Shown here: piece by piece, positions 26,829 to 41,852 of the stretch | Layout: every line of letters begins with the position of its first letter | How positions within the stretch are numbered: position 1 is the stretch's first letter | Assembly (NCBI GenBank): GCA_027485575.1 | Contig: JAIXQU010000112.1 | Span: 1 to 64,000 of the forward strand | DNA from: Cytophagaceae bacterium | Lineage (GTDB): Bacteria > Bacteroidota > Bacteroidia > Cytophagales > Flexibacteraceae | Length of the DNA stretch: 64,000 nucleotides | Direction: 5' to 3' | Notes under the pieces: generated by a model | Told to the model about the DNA's origin: nothing | Database searches by the model: none | What the model saw: the letters and a program-made list of their open reading frames with translations, nothing else | Position numbers and translations under genes: made by a program

Positions 26829-29800
26829 ATGAAAAAATTTTTATTTTTGGCCCTGATCTCGGCGATCGGACTTGTAGGAAATTTAAAAGCGCAATCCGTT
26901 TCCTGTATTGAAATCGGAGTTAACCCTCCGGTGGTTTGTGCTGGTAGTATAATTGAGATTCCATATATACTAAACCCACCCAATTGCTGTGGGCCAGATG
27001 GTATTAGAATTGAAATTGACCGTTCTCCGGCCTGTACTTTTTCTCCACCACTGATTGAAGGTCCGGGAAACCGAATATTAATTCCTGTTGGGACGCAGCG
27101 AGGAAACTACTGTGTAAGGTTTCGATGTGGTAATAAAGTATCTGTAGCCAAAACTTTTAGAATAGATTCTCTGGATCTTACACCTCCTCCAAGCATAATT
27201 ATTGCACAAACATCCCCTATCAGACCTAGTTATTGTCCAGATGACACCTTGTCATTTTGTATTTCTAATATTGCTGGAGCAGGAACTGGATATACCATTC
27301 AATGGGGATTGAATGATACTCTTTTGGATGGACAGTCTGACTCTTGCTTTAATATAACCAATCTGCAGGATAAAGATAAAATTTATTGTTTGGTAACGAA
27401 GCAAAGCCCTTGTGCCCTTTTTGCTACAAGTGCCTCAGATACAACAACTTTAAGGGTTAATAAAAAGCCAAAAGTTAGAGTTGTTTTGGCCCCGGGAAGT
27501 ACTGGTTGCGAATTATCCCTGAATACTTTTATTGCCAAACCCGATAGCGCTGACCCCAATTCATATTTTATTTGGACTCGGGAAACAATCAGAGGAATCG
27601 ATACCCTTTCCCAGGGTATTAATGATACTGTTTATTCTCTTTCGCCGGCAGATAGTGCAAAATTTGGATACAAGATTTGCGTTGAGATTATTTCTGGCCG
27701 ATGCAAATTAAAGGCCCAGGACTGTTTTGAAATTAAAGCCTGTGGTCAGGTTTTTATAGATCCTCCCCTCGTTACTGAAATATGTGCAGGTACAATTTTG
27801 AGAGTACCTTATAAAATATCAGGTTCTTTTACTGCAACCAATGTTTTTAAGGTTCAACTCTCAGATTCGCTGGGAAATTTTGGAAATCCTGTTGACATCG
27901 GGACTTTAGTTTCAGTAAAAGCTGACACAATTTTAGCCTTAATCCCGGCAGGTTCAAACGGAGGAGATTGCTTCAAGGTCAGAATTATCAGTTCACTTCC
28001 AATTGATACCAGTGATTCAAGCGCTTGCATCAAGGTATTTCCAAAGCCTATTGATCCAACAACTGTTGGCGATTCTGTATGTAAGTCTGGCTCAGTAACC
28101 TTATCTGCCAGTTCTATTCAAATTGGCTCAATTTTTCAATGGTATACATCCCCATTTGGAGGAACATCTGTTTTCACTGGAAACGAATTAACTTTAAACA
28201 TAACCAGAGATACTGTTTTTTATGTTTCTTCCACATCTGTAAATGGTTGTGAAAGCGATAGAATTCCGGTGAGCGGTATAATAAATCCTTCACCAGATGT
28301 GGAGGCAGGTGCTGATTTACAAAAATGTGTTGGAGATGGACCTGTGACGTTAACTCCATTCCCAACTGGCGGAACCTGGTCAGGTTCGCTTTTGGTGAGT
28401 AATAATGTAATCGATTTAACAGGAGTAGCGCCTGGGGTATATACTTTATTTTATCAGGTTTCTAATTCTCTGGGATGTATCACTATCGATTCATTAAAAA
28501 TTAATGTTACAGTCAAACCTGTGGTCAATGCAGGAAATGATACTACTTTTTGTTCCAATAGGTCTCCAGTATTATTGGTTGGAAGTCCGGCGGGAGGAAT
28601 TTGGTCTGGCACTGGCATCCAATCAGATGGAACTTTTGTTCCCTCCTCTTCAGGTGCCGGGACATTTGATATTGTTTATTTCTTTGAATTGAATGGTTGT
28701 TCTGCTTCTGATACAGTAAAAGTTACAGTAAATGAAGCACCTCCAATTTTTACAGTTACCACTACCAATCCATCGGCTTGTAATGTTGAGGATGGTTCTG
28801 CTACACTTGCAGGAATTGTAACTGGCCCAGGTTTTAAGGTGAAATGGTCCGTTAACCGGGCGGATTCATTATCAGATCCAACGCTTTCGAATTTAGATGC
28901 GGGGGCCTATACTGTGGTAGTCACCGAGCAATCTACGGGCTGTTCAAGAACCGCTGCATTTGGCCTTAGTGATCCTACTGTTACTCCTCCTGTAATTTCT
29001 GGATTAGATGCAAACTATTGTTCTTCTGATGATTGTGTAACAATGATAGTTGTACCGAATTCCCCAACCGGAACCTGGTCGGGAACAGGAGTTGTAGGGA
29101 ATACATTTTGTCCTTCTTTGGCAAATCTTGGTCCAAATGTCATAGTATATAGCTATGATACAGTTGGAGGATGCACAGGTAGTTCTTCGGTTATTGTCAG
29201 GGTAAATCAATCACCGGTAGTTAATGCTGGTGGGCCAATTGATACAGTTTGCAGGAACATCGGGCAATTTGTTTTAACTGGTTTTTCACCACCATCTCCT
29301 CCATCAGTATGGTCTCCTCAGCCTTTGGTAACGACAAGCGGAACGGTTAATCTTTCACTTGCAGCTACCGGAAACAACACACTTACCCTAACCAGGACTT
29401 TGGGAACTTGTACAGCTACGGATACAAGGGACGTATTTGTAATAGACAATCCGGAAATAAGCATTTCCAGGAACCCTGCTTCTCAGGTTTGTGTCGGTAG
29501 CTCTTTGGTTCTAACTGCCAATGTTTCAAATGGTGCCACAGTAGTAAGATATGAATGGTTTAAGGATAATGTCATTATCCCAAATGAAAACGATGATTCT
29601 ATAAGTGTCAGTTTAGCAGGCTCATATACGGTTAGGGCAATTGGTGTTGTCCAATGCGAAAATACGTCCTTACCCATTTTGGTTAATTTCAATCCATTGC
29701 CTTCCAATGGCGTTACTCCTTCCGGGATTTTGACACCATGCTCTAACAATCCAACTGTTTTAACAGCAGATAGCCTTACTGGTTACACATACCAATGGTT

Positions 29801-32800
29801 TGGATTAGATTCAATTGCTGGTGCAACAAGCCGGAAATTTGTTCCATTGGTAAGCGGCCAATACAAAGTAAGAATAAAGAATAGTTCAGGTTGCACCGCT
29901 TTCTCAGATATTGTAAATGTAAATATTCTGGATGCTCCAGTAGCACCGATTATTGCTCCGCCGTTTTCAGATACTTGCTTACAGGCTGGGCAACCTATTA
30001 CCATAACTGTAGGTTCTTCTGGTGCAGGACTTAGTTTTATCTGGAAAAAAGTTGCAAATCCCGATAGAGTTTTATCTTCTAACGGACCTTCAATTACTTT
30101 AGATACCATTGGTAGCTATTATGCAACAGTAATTGCTTCCAATGGTTGCTTCGCCATTTCTGATACCATAAATCTTAAACCAACCATAAAAATAACTGTC
30201 CAGGACTCAATCATTGAAAAATGCGTTGGAGATAACCAATTTGTTGTCTCAGGTTTAAGTCCTTCAACCGGATGTCAATTATTGTTCAATGGGGTTCCTT
30301 TGCAAAACAATATTTTTAATCCCGACCAGATTGGAAATTACATTCTTACCTACCAATGTGGAAGTACAAATGGATGTATTTCCAGGAAAAATATTGAAAT
30401 TCGGGTTACTCCGTTGCCTTTAGCAAATCTTTCAGTTCAAGGACCAACCAATGTTTGTCAGGGTGATACCGTAAGATTAATTCTTAATGACGGTGTGGAA
30501 ACCGGATGTAGCTATCAATTACTGCGAAACGGAACTGCTTTTGGTCCAGCAGTAAATACGGCTATTATTCCAGTTACGCTTCCAGGGAGCTACTCCGTGT
30601 TGGTTACTTGTGTAAGATGTTCCACCTTATCAAATTCTATTCAGGTAAATTTCAATCCAAAACCTACGGTCAACCCAGGTCTGGATTTGTCAGGATGTTC
30701 GCCGCTAATTGTCAATTTGAATGCTGCAGGAGTAACGCCTGGTGCATGGAGTGGCTCTCCGAGAGTTACCTCGACAGGATCCTACAACAGTGGAACTTTT
30801 ATCGGCTGTGATTCTGTCACATTGACTGTTGTTAATCCGACAACTTTGTGCTCAAACTCGGCAAAAAAGGAAATTTGTATATTTGCTTTACCCGATTTTA
30901 ATGTCGCAACTCAAAACGCTACTGCCTGCTTATTATCCAATGGATCGGCATGGGTGATAAACGGAAATTCTTCCGTTTCATATGAATGGACAAAGGTGGG
31001 TGATCCAACCATCCTATCGGTTAATGATTCATTGCTGAATGTTTTGCCAGGGGTTTATAAAGTTAAGATTACTTCTGTTTTTAACATTTGTAGCATTGAG
31101 AAAACGGTCATCATCAATAGTCCTAATAACCTGGAAATACAGATTGCAGGAATTCAAGATTCGCTTTGTGCCAATTCAAATCCAGTTCAGTTAACTGGTG
31201 TCCCTCAAGGTGGAATATTTAGTTCTATAGGAAATCGAATTCTCCCTGGCCCTCCTTCAAGATTTGATCCTTCAATTCCAGGTCTTGCCATTGATACAAT
31301 ATTTTATACGGTCAACGTCAATGGTTGTGTTGGAACCGGAAAGAAAGCAGTTAAAATTAATTCTATCCCGGTTTTGGATGCAGGTCCTAATGAGGATGTT
31401 TGTTTTGGAGATACTTTGGTATTAACAGCGCTTCAACCTTCTTCTGTTCCTCTTCTCTGGGTTGGCCAACAAATTGAAAATGATAATCTTTATGTTGCCT
31501 CTGATCCGGGAATAACTTCATCTGTGGTCTCATTTGGATATTCTATAAATGGTTGCAGCAATACTGCGTCTAAAACAATCACAGTAAGACCTTTGCCTGA
31601 GTTTGAGGTTGTTACTCAAGATGTTTCAAGCTGCGGATTGACTGATGGTAAGGTGGTTGTGAATATACTCAATCAAAACCAGTTCCAGATTATAGTTAGA
31701 AATGTTCAAGGCAATGTCATCCCACCACCAAGAGATAACCTTCCGGTTGGAGTTTACACTGTAAAGGTTACCAACAACACAACAGGTTGTGTAAAAGATG
31801 AATCTTTTGGAATTACGGGTCCAACCAACATCAATCCATTTGTTTGTCTTCAGAATGTTCCCATAGCCATTTGTCAAAATGATCCTCCGGTAACCATTGG
31901 AAAATGCAGGCCATCTGCTTCTATTTTTATCAATGGGGTACCAACACAGGTTCTGAATCCGGCTATCTATATTCCAAACGATAATATTGGTGTGATTCTG
32001 ACTGATACAGATGCCAATGGTTGTATTGGGGTTGAACAAAAAATTGTAGGAATTAAAGGTGTCCCATCTGTTAATGTGGCCGGCACGGGTCCTCTATTTG
32101 CTTGTACTGGCCAGGGTGTTTTACAGTTGACTGGTTTCTTTCCTTCATTTGATCCCACTATTCCTGAAAACGGTTGGACTTCTCCAGGTTCCCCTGCTGG
32201 TTTTATTACCAGAGAAGGAAGAATTAATCCTTCGGTTGTTACTTCAAATCAAACTTTTACACTTAGGTACACAGCAAAGAATGCCGATGGTTGCTCTGAG
32301 TTCAAAGAGGTTACCTTTAATATTTATGCAACTCCGGTGGCATCTATTGTTCCGAATACGCCCAATATTTCTATTTGTTTAGGAAGTTATGCTTCTCTTT
32401 CTTCCTTAAATCAAAACCCTGGATATGCTTACACATGGTATTTAGGTAATCAGGCAAATCCACCCCAGATTGGATTTGGTAGTTCATTAAATGCAACTTT
32501 AGGTGGTCCTTACAGGTTAATTGTTAACAACAATGGTTGTACATCTTCTTTTTCAGATATTGTTAATGTAACCACCACTCCAGCTCCTGTAATTGTGAGT
32601 ATTGGTCCGGATTCAATTATTTGTCAAACATCACCAAGCTTTGGGATCACAACTCCAATTGTATCAGGTGTAACCTCAACTGCACCAGTTTGGACAGGTG
32701 TTGGCAGTACCCCAGCTGGATTTATTAGCCCGGTTGGTATTGTAAATCCTTCTCTTGGACTACAGGGCCCTAACAAAGTCAGGTTTGTTGTAACCAATGG

Positions 32801-34328
32801 AAATTGCAGCGATACCGCCGAACGGATTTTTACTGTTATTCCTACAATCAATTCTCCGATTCAAGTAAATGGTAGCGTAGAATTATGCGATGGAGATGAA
32901 GTTGCTCTAATTGCACAGGCTACCGGGGCAGGTTACTCATATGAATGGTCCAGAGACGGAAGTGTAATCCTAAACGAAAATGATGACACCTTAATCGTAA
33001 AGCTCGCAGGAGAATACAAGGTTAAAATTCTAATTAATGGAAATGGAAGTTGCTCAGAGTTTTCAACCCAGACAGTTACAATTACGGTAAGACCATCTCC
33101 GGTAGTCAACATTTCCGGAGACACAATTTTAAGCATTTGCTATCCTGCCTCCACAATAGACTTAAATGCTGAGAGGCCATTTTCTCCAAGTGATGCAATT
33201 TGGTCCGGGCCTTCATCGATAGTTTCTTCAAATGGGGTAATAACGCCTAACAATATTCCAGCTGATGGAGACTATGTGTTGACTCTGACAAAAACAATTG
33301 GAACTTGTAGCACTTCGAAATCCCTGACCATCAGGGCGAACAGAATACCAGATGCCAATTTTACAGCAAACCCTGGTGCAATTTGTGATGGAGACTCGGT
33401 ATCAGTTACCTATCTGAATCCAAATAATTATCTAACTACCTGGTTAAGAGACAATAATGTTATATTAATCAATGTAAATGCCTTCAAAGCAAAAATAGCC
33501 GGAAATTATTCCTTGATTGTTAACAACAATGGTTGCATAAAGTCTGAAAGTAAATCCATTTTCGTGAGTCCGAAACCTGTTTTTGGATTGAAGCCGGATA
33601 CTTTTGTCTGTAAAAATGGAAGTCCAATTCTATTTAATGTAATTAACCCATCTGCTGGAGTTGGGGTTTGGTCCGGGTCTGGGATAAACCAAAATTCAGG
33701 AAATTGGAGTCCATCAGATCCTTTGGTTCCTTCTTCTGGATTTGATACAATAACTTATACCCTTACTTCTGAGGATGGTTGTATCACTAAAAAATCAACC
33801 ATAATCAGAATTGATGCAGTACCAGAAATAAAGCTCACCGCAAATCCTGAAACCATTGAGATAAAAGGTCCATCCATCCTTACTGCCAGTGGAGGAGTTA
33901 AATTTGAATGGTCACCAACCAATACACTCAATCAGAATAATGGACCTTCCGTTTCTGCCTCTCCAATGAAGACGGAACGGTACACCGTTAAGGTTACTTC
34001 TGATAAAAACTGTATCAATGAGGCATCCATAACAGTTAATGTGGATGAGGAATTTAAAATTTATGATGCCTTCTCACCCAATGGCGACCAGGACAATGAT
34101 GAATGGGTAATCAAAAATATCCAGGATCCCAGATTTGCCCAAGCAACTGTAAAGGTGTTTAATCGATGGGGAAATTTGGTTTATGAGTCTGAAAAAGGTT
34201 ATCCAAAACCTTGGGATGGTTCCTATGAAGGAAAACAGGTTCCACCGGGAGCGTACTTTTATATAATTGATTTTGGAACCGGATCCGGATTTAAAGCGAA
34301 ATCAGGTTCAGTAACAATTTTACGTTAA
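26829..34328 (+). CDS. giant multi-Ig-like surface protein with T9SS type-B (gliding motility-associated) C-terminal domain
   Basis: Signal peptide MKKFLFLALISAIGLVGNLKAQ; many Cys-containing Ig-like repeats; C-term IYDAFSPNGDQDNDEWVIKNI...VKVFNRWGNLVYES...PWDGSYEGKQVPPGAYFYIIDFG. Confidence 0.95.
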   Translation: MKKFLFLALISAIGLVGNLKAQSVSCIEIGVNPPVVCAGSIIEIPYILNPPNCCGPDGIRIEIDRSPACTFSPPLIEGPGNRILIPVGTQRGNYCVRFRCGNKVSVAKTFRIDSLDLTPPPSIIIAQTSPIRPSYCPDDTLSFCISNIAGAGTGYTIQWGLNDTLLDGQSDSCFNITNLQDKDKIYCLVTKQSPCALFATSASDTTTLRVNKKPKVRVVLAPGSTGCELSLNTFIAKPDSADPNSYFIWTRETIRGIDTLSQGINDTVYSLSPADSAKFGYKICVEIISGRCKLKAQDCFEIKACGQVFIDPPLVTEICAGTILRVPYKISGSFTATNVFKVQLSDSLGNFGNPVDIGTLVSVKADTILALIPAGSNGGDCFKVRIISSLPIDTSDSSACIKVFPKPIDPTTVGDSVCKSGSVTLSASSIQIGSIFQWYTSPFGGTSVFTGNELTLNITRDTVFYVSSTSVNGCESDRIPVSGIINPSPDVEAGADLQKCVGDGPVTLTPFPTGGTWSGSLLVSNNVIDLTGVAPGVYTLFYQVSNSLGCITIDSLKINVTVKPVVNAGNDTTFCSNRSPVLLVGSPAGGIWSGTGIQSDGTFVPSSSGAGTFDIVYFFELNGCSASDTVKVTVNEAPPIFTVTTTNPSACNVEDGSATLAGIVTGPGFKVKWSVNRADSLSDPTLSNLDAGAYTVVVTEQSTGCSRTAAFGLSDPTVTPPVISGLDANYCSSDDCVTMIVVPNSPTGTWSGTGVVGNTFCPSLANLGPNVIVYSYDTVGGCTGSSSVIVRVNQSPVVNAGGPIDTVCRNIGQFVLTGFSPPSPPSVWSPQPLVTTSGTVNLSLAATGNNTLTLTRTLGTCTATDTRDVFVIDNPEISISRNPASQVCVGSSLVLTANVSNGATVVRYEWFKDNVIIPNENDDSISVSLAGSYTVRAIGVVQCENTSLPILVNFNPLPSNGVTPSGILTPCSNNPTVLTADSLTGYTYQWFGLDSIAGATSRKFVPLVSGQYKVRIKNSSGCTAFSDIVNVNILDAPVAPIIAPPFSDTCLQAGQPITITVGSSGAGLSFIWKKVANPDRVLSSNGPSITLDTIGSYYATVIASNGCFAISDTINLKPTIKITVQDSIIEKCVGDNQFVVSGLSPSTGCQLLFNGVPLQNNIFNPDQIGNYILTYQCGSTNGCISRKNIEIRVTPLPLANLSVQGPTNVCQGDTVRLILNDGVETGCSYQLLRNGTAFGPAVNTAIIPVTLPGSYSVLVTCVRCSTLSNSIQVNFNPKPTVNPGLDLSGCSPLIVNLNAAGVTPGAWSGSPRVTSTGSYNSGTFIGCDSVTLTVVNPTTLCSNSAKKEICIFALPDFNVATQNATACLLSNGSAWVINGNSSVSYEWTKVGDPTILSVNDSLLNVLPGVYKVKITSVFNICSIEKTVIINSPNNLEIQIAGIQDSLCANSNPVQLTGVPQGGIFSSIGNRILPGPPSRFDPSIPGLAIDTIFYTVNVNGCVGTGKKAVKINSIPVLDAGPNEDVCFGDTLVLTALQPSSVPLLWVGQQIENDNLYVASDPGITSSVVSFGYSINGCSNTASKTITVRPLPEFEVVTQDVSSCGLTDGKVVVNILNQNQFQIIVRNVQGNVIPPPRDNLPVGVYTVKVTNNTTGCVKDESFGITGPTNINPFVCLQNVPIAICQNDPPVTIGKCRPSASIFINGVPTQVLNPAIYIPNDNIGVILTDTDANGCIGVEQKIVGIKGVPSVNVAGTGPLFACTGQGVLQLTGFFPSFDPTIPENGWTSPGSPAGFITREGRINPSVVTSNQTFTLRYTAKNADGCSEFKEVTFNIYATPVASIVPNTPNISICLGSYASLSSLNQNPGYAYTWYLGNQANPPQIGFGSSLNATLGGPYRLIVNNNGCTSSFSDIVNVTTTPAPVIVSIGPDSIICQTSPSFGITTPIVSGVTSTAPVWTGVGSTPAGFISPVGIVNPSLGLQGPNKVRFVVTNGNCSDTAERIFTVIPTINSPIQVNGSVELCDGDEVALIAQATGAGYSYEWSRDGSVILNENDDTLIVKLAGEYKVKILINGNGSCSEFSTQTVTITVRPSPVVNISGDTILSICYPASTIDLNAERPFSPSDAIWSGPSSIVSSNGVITPNNIPADGDYVLTLTKTIGTCSTSKSLTIRANRIPDANFTANPGAICDGDSVSVTYLNPNNYLTTWLRDNNVILINVNAFKAKIAGNYSLIVNNNGCIKSESKSIFVSPKPVFGLKPDTFVCKNGSPILFNVINPSAGVGVWSGSGINQNSGNWSPSDPLVPSSGFDTITYTLTSEDGCITKKSTIIRIDAVPEIKLTANPETIEIKGPSILTASGGVKFEWSPTNTLNQNNGPSVSASPMKTERYTVKVTSDKNCINEASITVNVDEEFKIYDAFSPNGDQDNDEWVIKNIQDPRFAQATVKVFNRWGNLVYESEKGYPKPWDGSYEGKQVPPGAYFYIIDFGTGSGFKAKSGSVTILR

Positions 34329-37518: not shown

Positions 37519-37932
37519 ATGAAAATCTCAGTATTTAGAAAAGAGCATTTTAATGCTGCTCACCGTCTTCACAATCCCAATTGGTCAGATGACAAAAACA
37601 AAGCAGTATTTGGAAAATGCAACAATGCCAACTTTCATGGGCACAACTACGAGTTGATTGTAGAGGTATCTGGAGAAATCGATCCTGAAACTGGTTATTT
37701 GATAGATATGAAATATCTTAGCAGTATCATTCAGGAGCATGTAACTGAAAAATTTGATCATCAAAACTTAAATACAGATGTTAAAGAATTTGAAAACCTT
37801 AACCCCACCGCAGAAAACATTGCTGTGGTTATTTGGCATATTTTAAGAAAACAACTTAACGAACAATTCGAAATAATAATTACTCTTTATGAGACAGAAA
37901 GAAACTTTGTTAGATACCCCTCTTCAAGATAA
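37519..37932 (+). CDS. 6-pyruvoyl-tetrahydropterin synthase / 6-carboxytetrahydropterin synthase family, C-x5-HGH (PTPS-II) type
   Basis: FNAAHRL, GKCNNANFHGHNYELIVEVSGEIDPETGYLIDMKYL, FDHQNLN, PTAENIAVVIW, ETERN. Confidence 0.93.
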   Translation: MKISVFRKEHFNAAHRLHNPNWSDDKNKAVFGKCNNANFHGHNYELIVEVSGEIDPETGYLIDMKYLSSIIQEHVTEKFDHQNLNTDVKEFENLNPTAENIAVVIWHILRKQLNEQFEIIITLYETERNFVRYPSSR

Positions 37933-37966
37933 GATACTTACAATTAATCCTTTAGAAGGTTTTACT

Positions 37967-38611
37967 ATGGAAGAAATTGGAGAACAGCACTTGTTCACAA
38001 GTTTTGAAACACCCATGCGGCCAGATGCTTTTGAGCTGGATGATGAAACTAAAATTGAACTTATTGAGCGGCGATTCACTGAAATTATGAATATTTTGGG
38101 ATTAGATCTGAACGATGATAGTCTCAAGGGAACTCCGCACAGGGTGGCAAAAATGTATGTGAAAGAGGTTTTTAAAGGATTAAACCCAAAGAATGCTCCC
38201 AAAATTGCCTTGTTTGACAACAAGTTCCAGTACGACCAAATGCTGATTGAAAAGGACATTACCTTATTTAGCAATTGCGAGCATCACTTTGTTCCAATCG
38301 TAGGGAAAGCCCATGTTGCCTACATTTCAAGTGGTAAAGTTATTGGGTTAAGTAAAATCAATAGGATAGTGGAATATTTTGCAAAAAGACCACAGGTTCA
38401 GGAAAGATTAAATGTGCAAATAGCAAAATATCTATCTGAAGTTCTTGAGACCGAAAGTGTTGCTGTAATCATTGATGCAAAACATCTTTGTGTTAGTTCC
38501 AGAGGGGTAGAGGACACCTCAAGCTCCACAATTACAGCCACTTATCTCGGCAAATTTCAGGAGCAAGGAACGAAAAACGAATTATTACAACATATCTACA
38601 ACGGCCGATAA
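37967..38611 (+). CDS. folE: GTP cyclohydrolase I
   Basis: GTPHRVAKMYVKEVFKGL, TLFSNCEHHFVPIVGKAHVAYI, GLSKINRIVEYFAKRPQVQERL, DAKHLCVSSRGVEDTSSSTITA; start may be 37889 or 37967. Confidence 0.96.
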   Translation: MEEIGEQHLFTSFETPMRPDAFELDDETKIELIERRFTEIMNILGLDLNDDSLKGTPHRVAKMYVKEVFKGLNPKNAPKIALFDNKFQYDQMLIEKDITLFSNCEHHFVPIVGKAHVAYISSGKVIGLSKINRIVEYFAKRPQVQERLNVQIAKYLSEVLETESVAVIIDAKHLCVSSRGVEDTSSSTITATYLGKFQEQGTKNELLQHIYNGR

Positions 38612-38632
38612 AATTCAGCTAAAATTTTTAAA

Positions 38633-38660
38633 AAGCCATGTGAAAGCATGGCTTATTTTT
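38633..38660 (+). terminator. intrinsic terminator of folE
   Basis: AAGCCATG-TGAAAG-CATGGCTT perfect 8-bp stem then ATTTTTT. Confidence 0.85.
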
Positions 38661-38661
38661 T

Positions 38662-39351
38662 ATGAAAAACGTATTGATAGTAGGCGCTAGTTCTGGGATT
38701 GGTGAGTCGTTAAAACTTAACCTTGAACAAGCAGGAATGTCAGTTTATACTGCAGGTAGAAGACCGGTTTCTTCGTCTGGCCATGTTTTTTTTGATGCAG
38801 GTTCTAACGAAGATTTTCAAATTCCGGAAGGATGGCCATCAGAATTTCATGGTTTTGTTTATTGCCCGGGGACAATCAATCTTAAGCCATTTTCCAGGAT
38901 GAAAAATGAAGATTTTCTTTCTGATTTTCAGGTTAATTTTTTGGGTTTTGTTTCAGTTTTGAAAGCCGTTTTACCTTCCCTTAAAAAGGCGAATGGCGCT
39001 TCTGTCGTTGTCTTCTCCAGTGTAGCTTCAGTAGTTGGTCTGGGATTTCATTCCAGTATTTCTGCCGCAAAAGGCGCCCTTCAAGCTATGGCAATTTCTT
39101 TGGCTTCTGAATTGGCGCCAAATCAAATACGAGTTAATGTAATTGCCCCATCTCTAACCAACACTCCACTTGCATCTACTCTTTTGAATAGTCCTGAAAA
39201 AATAGAAGCCTCGGGTAAGAGGCATCCGTTGCAAAGGGTTGGAAATGCCAATGACATTGCCTCTGCTGCTGCATATTTTTTAGGTGATAGCAGTTCTTGG
39301 GTTACCGGTCAGGTTCTAAGTGTGGATGGTGGTTTGAGCACCTTAAAATAG
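38662..39351 (+). CDS. SDR family protein with altered catalytic Tyr position
   Basis: VLIVGASSGIGESL, FSSVAS, FHSSISAAKGALQAM, RVNVIAPS, SSWVTGQVLSVDGG. Confidence 0.92.
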   Translation: MKNVLIVGASSGIGESLKLNLEQAGMSVYTAGRRPVSSSGHVFFDAGSNEDFQIPEGWPSEFHGFVYCPGTINLKPFSRMKNEDFLSDFQVNFLGFVSVLKAVLPSLKKANGASVVVFSSVASVVGLGFHSSISAAKGALQAMAISLASELAPNQIRVNVIAPSLTNTPLASTLLNSPEKIEASGKRHPLQRVGNANDIASAAAYFLGDSSSWVTGQVLSVDGGLSTLK

Positions 39352-39377: not shown

Positions 39378-40259
39378 TTACTCTTTTTCCTGCATAATCC
39401 TCAGTTTTTTTCGAATCTGTTCGCTGGTAAGTGTGCTTCCATCCGGACACCAGCCTGGGGGATTCAACAGATATCTGATTTTGGTTTGAAAAGATACAGG
39501 TCTGTTTAAATCCTGAATTAATTTTTTCCATTCTCCAAAGATTACCTCTTCTGGTGAACCGGTTCTAAGTGGGGTTGTCAATCCAAATTCCGGTTTTTCT
39601 GTTTCTGCCTGAAATGTTCCAAAAATCCGGTCCCAGATGATAAGAACCATGCCCATATTTTTATCCAGATAAATTGGGTTTTTGGCATGATGAACCCTAT
39701 GGTGGGAAGGCGTCACCATGAACCATTCCAGAAACCCCATTTTATTGATTTTTTCCGTGTGTACGAAAAATCCATAGGTCTGGCAAAGGGCATACATGAA
39801 AAGAATATCCAAAGGTTGAAATCCAAGAAAGGCCAGTGGCATATAATAGACAAACCTATACAATGGCTGAAAAACTGAACTTCGGATAGCCACAGTAAAG
39901 TTGAATTTTTCCGAACTATGGTGGGTAACATGGACTGCCCAGAAAAACCTTGTGTAATGGTCAACTACATGAAGGAGATAGTACAGAAAATCTTGCCCCA
40001 GAAAGAGGAACCCCCAATACAATATTTGATTTTCTATTTGAATAGGCGCAAATTGGAAAGCAAAAACCAATGCCCCTAAAGTAACTCCTCGCATCAGGAT
40101 ATCTAAACCAAAGTTAAGTCCGGTACACAAAAGATTGATTGCCGTGTCCTTTGTTGAATAGCTTTTGGTGTTTTGAATGCTTGAAATCAACATTTCTCCC
40201 AAAATTAAAACCAAATAAATGGGTGTTTCAATCAATAAGAGAATTTGCTCACGAATCAT
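39378..40259 (-). CDS. fatty-acid hydroxylase/sterol desaturase superfamily membrane protein, alkylglycerol monooxygenase (AGMO)-like
   Basis: Histidine clusters HVVDH, HVTHH, HHRVHH; FFVHTEKINKMGFLEWFMVTPSHHRVHHAKNPIYLDKNMGMVLIIWDRIFGTFQAETEKPEFGLTTPL; NPPGWCPDG. Confidence 0.88.
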   Translation of the reverse strand: MIREQILLLIETPIYLVLILGEMLISSIQNTKSYSTKDTAINLLCTGLNFGLDILMRGVTLGALVFAFQFAPIQIENQILYWGFLFLGQDFLYYLLHVVDHYTRFFWAVHVTHHSSEKFNFTVAIRSSVFQPLYRFVYYMPLAFLGFQPLDILFMYALCQTYGFFVHTEKINKMGFLEWFMVTPSHHRVHHAKNPIYLDKNMGMVLIIWDRIFGTFQAETEKPEFGLTTPLRTGSPEEVIFGEWKKLIQDLNRPVSFQTKIRYLLNPPGWCPDGSTLTSEQIRKKLRIMQEKE

Positions 40260-40277: not shown

Positions 40278-41852
40278 TTATTGTCTTTGTTTTTCAAAGA
40301 TAACAGCTGCGAACCGATTATCAGAGGCTTGAAAAACCTGCAATTCTTTATATTTTCCACTTTGGACAAAATATTCATATGGAACCCCCCTTTTGTAGTT
40401 TGGCCTGTAACCATAATGGCTATCCCACAAAACAATACTTCCAATCGGTGCTTTTTCCATGGTGGCGGTGTCTGCTATGGCAATTGGCTCCGGAGTGAAC
40501 TGTTTTTCAACTTTTCCAAAGAAATAATAAAACATGATGTGGGTGTTATACAGAGGCTTCCCACTTACAAGGCTTGAATTGCTTTTGTACCAGGTAGCAA
40601 CCTCCTGACAAACTTTATCTTCCTCACTAAGCTTTATAGCTTTTACATTAACCAAGGCCATAAAGGCACAAAGTACAGCAAACATGGTGGTTTGAATGGT
40701 TTTGCCAACGGGAATAAAAACAAACGCCGAAGCAAAAAGCGCCCCGACCAAAGGGATGGTATCACTCTCCTCGGTGAGAACAACAAAATTGTGTTTGTAA
40801 TTGAGATAAACTCCAACAAGAATTAAATAGGGGATGATGATGTAGGCAAGTTGAATCTTATTAGCCATAGATTTCACCCTGTCTAACGCAAGAGACGCAC
40901 AAACAGCAACCAAAGGTGAAATTATACACATATATCTCAGGTTTCCTCCTGTTGCAGGCCCAATGGGAACTTCCTGCCAGTTGAAAAGACAATTCAGGAG
41001 AAAAAAACCAAGGGTGGCCACCAGAATAGCGGGTTGTTCCATCTTTTTATTTAGGGCCATTTGACCCAGGAACAGAACCATTAAAGTCAGGGCCACTGGT
41101 CCAAAAACTACGGCTGAGGTTAAAAAATAATGGTCAAAACCTTGTCTTGTATAGGCATCTTTGAGTGTTTCTGAAGTTCCAAGAATTTGAGTTACTAAAT
41201 ACATGGGGTCACCATAAAGGAGATAGCCTGCAAAGTTTTGCAACAGTGGGAGGATAGCAATAGAAAAAGCAGAAATCCAGTTTCTTTGAAACAAAAGTGA
41301 AACGCCTAAAATTGCAGCAATTGGATAAAATTCCTGACGGATTGTACAAATGAGACCAGCTAAAATTGCAGCTGGCAGCATTTTTTTCTGGGCATAAAAA
41401 TAATAACCAAGGATTAAGAGGAAGCCCGCAGGAAATTCAGAATAATTCCGGAAAGAAAGCGAAATCCAAAGCGGTTGACTGGCAAGTAAAATAAACGCAA
41501 TCCATGGATTGCTTGCCCCCAACTTTTCAGCCGTTTTATATGCAAAAAAACAGGAGAATCCTGCAAATAGACAGTTTTGAAAAGTAACCAGTTTCTGGCC
41601 TCCAAGTGCTGTCAGCACATACAGGATTTTATAACCAGGTTTTGCCCAGTTGCCCATAATGGCGGTTGGGTCGAACCAAAACCGAAGCATGGAAAGATAG
41701 TGGTTGGCTTCGTCTTGTTGGTAAAACCCCTTGGATTTGAGGGAATAGGCAAAATAAAGGAGGCTCAAAACACCCGCGGCCAAAATGGGCCAGGAATTTT
41801 TAGCAGTATTATTTGTTTTTAAGACTTCAACTTTAGGATCAGTTGTCTTCAT
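40278..41852 (-). CDS. polytopic membrane protein, probable GT39/ArnT-like glycosyltransferase
   Basis: Multiple TM helices with early QQDEANHYLSMLRFWFDP acidic loop, LICTIRQEFYPIAAIL. Confidence 0.5.
   Translation of the reverse strand: MKTTDPKVEVLKTNNTAKNSWPILAAGVLSLLYFAYSLKSKGFYQQDEANHYLSMLRFWFDPTAIMGNWAKPGYKILYVLTALGGQKLVTFQNCLFAGFSCFFAYKTAEKLGASNPWIAFILLASQPLWISLSFRNYSEFPAGFLLILGYYFYAQKKMLPAAILAGLICTIRQEFYPIAAILGVSLLFQRNWISAFSIAILPLLQNFAGYLLYGDPMYLVTQILGTSETLKDAYTRQGFDHYFLTSAVVFGPVALTLMVLFLGQMALNKKMEQPAILVATLGFFLLNCLFNWQEVPIGPATGGNLRYMCIISPLVAVCASLALDRVKSMANKIQLAYIIIPYLILVGVYLNYKHNFVVLTEESDTIPLVGALFASAFVFIPVGKTIQTTMFAVLCAFMALVNVKAIKLSEEDKVCQEVATWYKSNSSLVSGKPLYNTHIMFYYFFGKVEKQFTPEPIAIADTATMEKAPIGSIVLWDSHYGYRPNYKRGVPYEYFVQSGKYKELQVFQASDNRFAAVIFEKQRQ

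Follow-up and report, generated by a model that had tools for sequence, protein, structure and literature searches.

Does a bacterial membrane hydroxylase gene that lies against a set of tetrahydropterin synthesis genes encode a pterin-dependent enzyme of the AGMO kind (AGMO/TMEM195, EC 1.14.16.5; tetrahydrobiopterin (BH4)-dependent cleavage of alkylglycerol ethers)? The question is raised by a 64,000-nt stretch of DNA from a Cytophagaceae bacterium (hereafter the window; the host assembly is a draft of 3.9 Mb), in which an earlier note had read one gene as an AGMO-like hydroxylase and had proposed pterin-dependent lipid oxidation for its product. The features on which our answer rests are collected in Table 1.

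Table 1. Positions in the window of the hydroxylase gene, its neighbours and the residues compared with human AGMO
Feature	Position	Strand	Basis or remark
PTPS (6-pyruvoyltetrahydropterin synthase), mammalian BH4 type	37519..37932	+	PF01242; best PDB matches 1b66, 3i2b
GTP cyclohydrolase I (GCH1), exact start uncertain	37889..38611	+	TIGR00063 and NF006824, above cut-off
SDR without the YxxxK tyrosine, convergent neighbour	38662..39351	+	Part of the PTPS-GCH1-SDR cluster, not of the hydroxylase
Hydroxylase gene (AGMO-related PF04116 membrane protein)	39378..40259	-	293-aa ORF, ATG start, PF04116 match, AlphaFold2 model
Trp209-Asp210 (human W243, D244)	39630..39635	-	Multiple alignment
Met202 in place of AGMO Y236 (DKNM, not DKNY)	39654..39656	-	Alignment; Met in 68/69 clade members
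His box 3, HHRVHH (H187, H190, H191 = human H221, H224, H225)	39687..39704	-	Alignment
His167 (human H201), within FFVHTE	39759..39761	-	Alignment
Ser127 in place of AGMO Q162	39879..39881	-	Alignment; Ser in 69/69 clade members
His box 2, HVTHH (H110, H113, H114 = human H145, H148, H149)	39918..39932	-	Alignment
Tyr102 in place of AGMO E137 (BH4 contact)	39954..39956	-	Alignment; role of E137 from PMC3617469
His box 1, HVVDH (H97, H101 = human H132, H136)	39957..39971	-	Multiple alignment
Membrane glycosyltransferase-like protein, 524 aa, upstream	40278..41852	-	Weak match to NF046093 (glycopolymer-formation family)

A superfamily member with long-range similarity to AGMO

The 293-aa product matches Pfam PF04116 (fatty acid hydroxylase superfamily) with 88 bits (E 8e-25), above the cut-off of 31 and far outside chance. 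All of the strings quoted in the earlier note are found in this reading frame: HVVDH at residues 97-101, HVTHH at 110-114 and HHRVHH at 186-191, together with the FFVHTEKIN...FGTFQAETEKPEFGLT run and NPPGWCPDG. The AlphaFold2 model of the protein (53 sequences) has a mean pLDDT of 96.6 and is helical for the most part; among solved structures Foldseek turned up nothing convincingly related to this model, and querying the PDB by sequence gave no significant match. A second PF04116 protein is encoded in the host genome (L001, G000:C145:265-660); it is distant from the window protein, and its residues differ at several of the AGMO positions. The window also holds a very long ORF of 2499 aa at 26829-34328 (+).

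For comparison with AGMO we used a provisional human sequence, which is 445 aa long, as published, and is correct at 16 of 16 published positions, its other letters being uncertain. BLASTP aligned this provisional sequence to residues 12-282 of the window protein, with 37% identity over 283 columns (159 bits, E ~4e-48), compared with 42-72 bits for other PF04116 proteins of the same order and 273 bits for the best long bacterial protein. The alignment extends about 90 residues beyond the last His box, so that the likeness to AGMO past this cluster, and its being closer than that of a generic sterol desaturase, as the earlier note had it, are both borne out.

Residues and clades that set the window protein apart from AGMO

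Human AGMO depends on nine histidines (132, 136, 145, 148, 149, 201, 221, 224 and 225) and also needs Q162, D233, N235, Y236, W243 and D244 (PMC3617469, PMC7911779). The eight-histidine motif and the ninth conserved His are present in the window protein (H97, H101, H110, H113, H114, H167, H187, H190 and H191), and the alignment shows D233, N235, W243 and D244 to be kept as D199, N201, W209 and D210. These correspondences can be counted at fixed spacing up to residue 162; beyond it the window protein is offset by one, and the multiple alignment was used there.

Three positions are exchanged: E137 to Tyr, Q162 to Ser and Y236 to Met. The active-site Glu and Tyr by which the earlier note proposed to recognise AGMO are therefore absent. 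Ala mutants of human AGMO at Q162 and Y236 are inactive (PMC3617469), while E137 is a BH4 contact whose mutation to Ala increases the Km for BH4 by about 18-fold and is absent from the list of changes that abolish activity (PMC3617469); a Glu of this type is said to be missing from other members of the superfamily (PMC3617469, PMC7911779). The window protein is also shorter than AGMO, 293 vs 445 aa: it stops without the C-terminal extension and has no match to the AGMP_C domain (PF24858), and nothing in the host genome scored above the cut-off of that profile.

Relatives are common in the group. Matches at E 1e-10 or better were found in 77 of 98 related genomes, the window's own included, and a scan of GTDB genomes returned 80 named loci, almost all in Bacteroidota, with a few of the more distant ones labelled Gammaproteobacteria, Polyangiaceae and Hyphomonadaceae. 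We aligned 110 proteins, a few of them near-copies, comprising 69 of the window type, 20 long and 21 short ones. Within the window clade, which is centred on Bacteroidota, residue 162 is Ser in every protein and residue 236 is Met in all but one (68 of 69), while residue 137 varies freely (Tyr in 26, His in 15, Glu in 9, Arg in 5, Lys and Phe in 3 each, and others). The long proteins of Bacteroidota (about 400-465 aa; for example L016, L019 and L144) share the His boxes and 37-41% identity with the window protein, but they differ from it in always having Q162 (20/20), in mostly keeping E137 (17/20, with Val in the other three) and in carrying His or Tyr at 236, mostly His. Two of five long proteins scanned matched PF24858 weakly, under the cut-off. 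Among the short proteins most have Q162, and residue 137 is mixed. A search of open-licence papers found no characterised bacterial member of the window clade.

The trees, both of which include the provisional human sequence and the three diagnostic columns (137, 162 and 236), separate the same groups. A quick tree of 66 rows recovered the window clade (SH-aLRT 97) and a group made up of human AGMO and the long proteins (99). In a more careful tree of 42 rows, human AGMO and the long, mostly E137 bacterial proteins formed a group with support of 100/100, which together with most of the short Q162 proteins made a group of 21 rows (99/97) that left the window clade outside; as a single group the window clade was moderately supported (87/78). 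Forcing the window protein to join the human and long proteins cost 124 log units, a figure to which we give less weight than to the branch supports because the constraint was strict and also split the window clade. The window protein thus falls apart from the clade with the human enzyme, counter to the grouping that the earlier note would have led one to expect; judged from its sequence, it is AGMO-related but not an AGMO orthologue. It is an ordinary member of a known superfamily, placed in a separate subfamily that adjoins AGMO. The proteins L014, L015, L016, L019, L024, L029, L032, L144, L151 and others, of AGMO length, with E137 and Q162 and grouping with human AGMO at 100/100, are by their sequences candidates for true bacterial AGMO.

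The neighbouring pterin genes

In the window the SDR gene adjoins the hydroxylase gene on the opposite strand, the two converging with 26 bp between them, and GTP cyclohydrolase I and PTPS precede the SDR. Each of the 30 PTPS loci fetched (the window's among them) has GCH1 next to PTPS, and in several lineages, all four congeners among them, the SDR comes after the pair. As a cluster the three genes (window 37519-39351) are conserved within part of the order. The catalytic tyrosine of the YxxxK motif is missing from the window's SDR and from 19 of 19 aligned relatives, a conserved HxSIxxAKGA-like stretch being found there instead. An atypical SDR may thus belong to a tetrahydropterin pathway.

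The hydroxylase gene does not share this constancy. In the congeners G001 and G002 it lies on a different contig from the PTPS-GCH1-SDR cluster and retains the glycosyltransferase-like gene and GldB as neighbours, and in G003 and G004 the pterin cluster is present and no hydroxylase match was found, although such an absence is not absolute, because the congeners are represented by draft assemblies of 230-290 contigs. Inspection of 102 context stretches yielded a PTPS homologue on two occasions, at a distance of 6-8 kb, and neither GCH1 nor the SDR in any. No functional partner emerged among the neighbours of the clade, the commonest of which look like housekeeping genes and are present at no more than 12 of about 65 loci. 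A link to pterin by gene neighbourhood, striking in the window itself, was for these reasons dropped: the adjacency is unconserved in named relatives and even within the genus, and we therefore reject it as support for pterin use. A rearrangement is the best explanation for the junction between the hydroxylase and the pterin cluster in the window.

Nearly all members of the order have the tetrahydropterin-type pathway, whether or not they carry the hydroxylase gene. The host genome encodes a protein with a nitric oxide synthase oxygenase domain (L087, G000:C61:19819-20889; 505 bits to PF02898), and a search of it for aromatic amino acid hydroxylases found none; the nitric oxide synthase is likely another user of the host's pterin.

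Probable function and its alternatives

We consider it likely that the window protein is a diiron lipid hydroxylase of the PF04116 superfamily, from a Bacteroidota-centred subfamily that stands beside the AGMO group and outside it, and that BH4 binding through an E137 of the AGMO type is not to be expected of it. By analogy with the family, a diiron centre and lipid hydroxylation are most likely: the eight His ligands and the ninth essential His would bind a pair of iron atoms at the membrane face, making the protein an integral membrane, non-haem diiron monooxygenase that would activate O2 and hydroxylate a C-H bond of a membrane lipid, close to the lipid head group.

The pterin-dependent lipid oxidation proposed in the earlier note is left unsupported, because the AGMO residues are replaced (Tyr, Ser and Met at 137, 162 and 236) and the clade groups apart from the human enzyme. 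That E137, Q162 and Y236 are all replaced speaks, at the level of sequence, against the handling of cofactor and substrate known from AGMO, but is compatible with pterin use by another route; loss of the Glu would alone be compatible with pterin use, because E137A raises the Km and is not among the abolishing mutations. "AGMO-like" is a fair label for the similarity, while "pterin-dependent AGMO" is an unsupported one.

It is unlikely, if the best of the alternatives, that the protein is a pterin-dependent lipid hydroxylase acting on another substrate, with its cofactor bound otherwise than through E137. The position in the tree beside AGMO, the tetrahydropterin-type pathway of the host and the Glu found at 137 in 9 of the 69 clade members are all consistent with such an enzyme, but residue 137 varies freely across the clade, the pathway occurs in the order irrespective of the hydroxylase gene, and the host's nitric oxide synthase can account for the pterin.

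Less probable again is a true bacterial AGMO, cleaving alkylglycerol ethers with BH4 and having exchanged its pterin contact residues. Such a reading would fit the 37% identity to the provisional human sequence that continues past the last His box, the retention of D233 and N235 and the adjoining PTPS-GCH1-SDR cluster. Against these stand the replacement of E137 and of both residues whose Ala mutants are inactive in the human enzyme, a protein that lacks the C-terminal extension and belongs to a clade distinct from that of human AGMO, and the congeners, two of which have the hydroxylase without pterin adjacency and two the pterin genes without a hydroxylase match.

A hydroxylase of amino-acid-containing lipids, similar to the ornithine lipid hydroxylase OlsE, is very unlikely and was dropped: OlsE (NF052566), likewise a membrane hydroxylase of the PF04116 type, is the sole NCBIfam match of the window protein and matches 10 of 10 clade members tested, but the score of 58.3 bits is far under the curated cut-off of 475, and an aminolipid substrate is weakened further because the OlsB/GlsB-type acyltransferase (PF13444) was not found in the host genome. 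The plasmalogen desaturase family PF10520, a sign of plasmalogen synthesis, had no match in the host genome, nor in the control genomes.

To return to the diiron lipid hydroxylase outside the AGMO group, we put forward, tentatively and as something that may well prove otherwise, that the Ser/Met clade forms an AGMO-related branch, widespread in Bacteroidota and distinct in function, that oxidises a membrane lipid with a cofactor arrangement other than that of AGMO, perhaps a tetrahydropterin bound without E137, or perhaps a wholly different electron donor.

Bacterial proteins of the window type are easily named AGMO from the similarity of their His boxes. Residues 137, 162 and 236, taken with length, separate the window clade from the AGMO-proper clade of Bacteroidota, with which the human enzyme groups. 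The bacterial proteins of the AGMO-proper clade might aid the biochemistry of AGMO, which has been reported to be too labile to purify, and the window clade offers a natural comparison for the gain or loss of pterin use.
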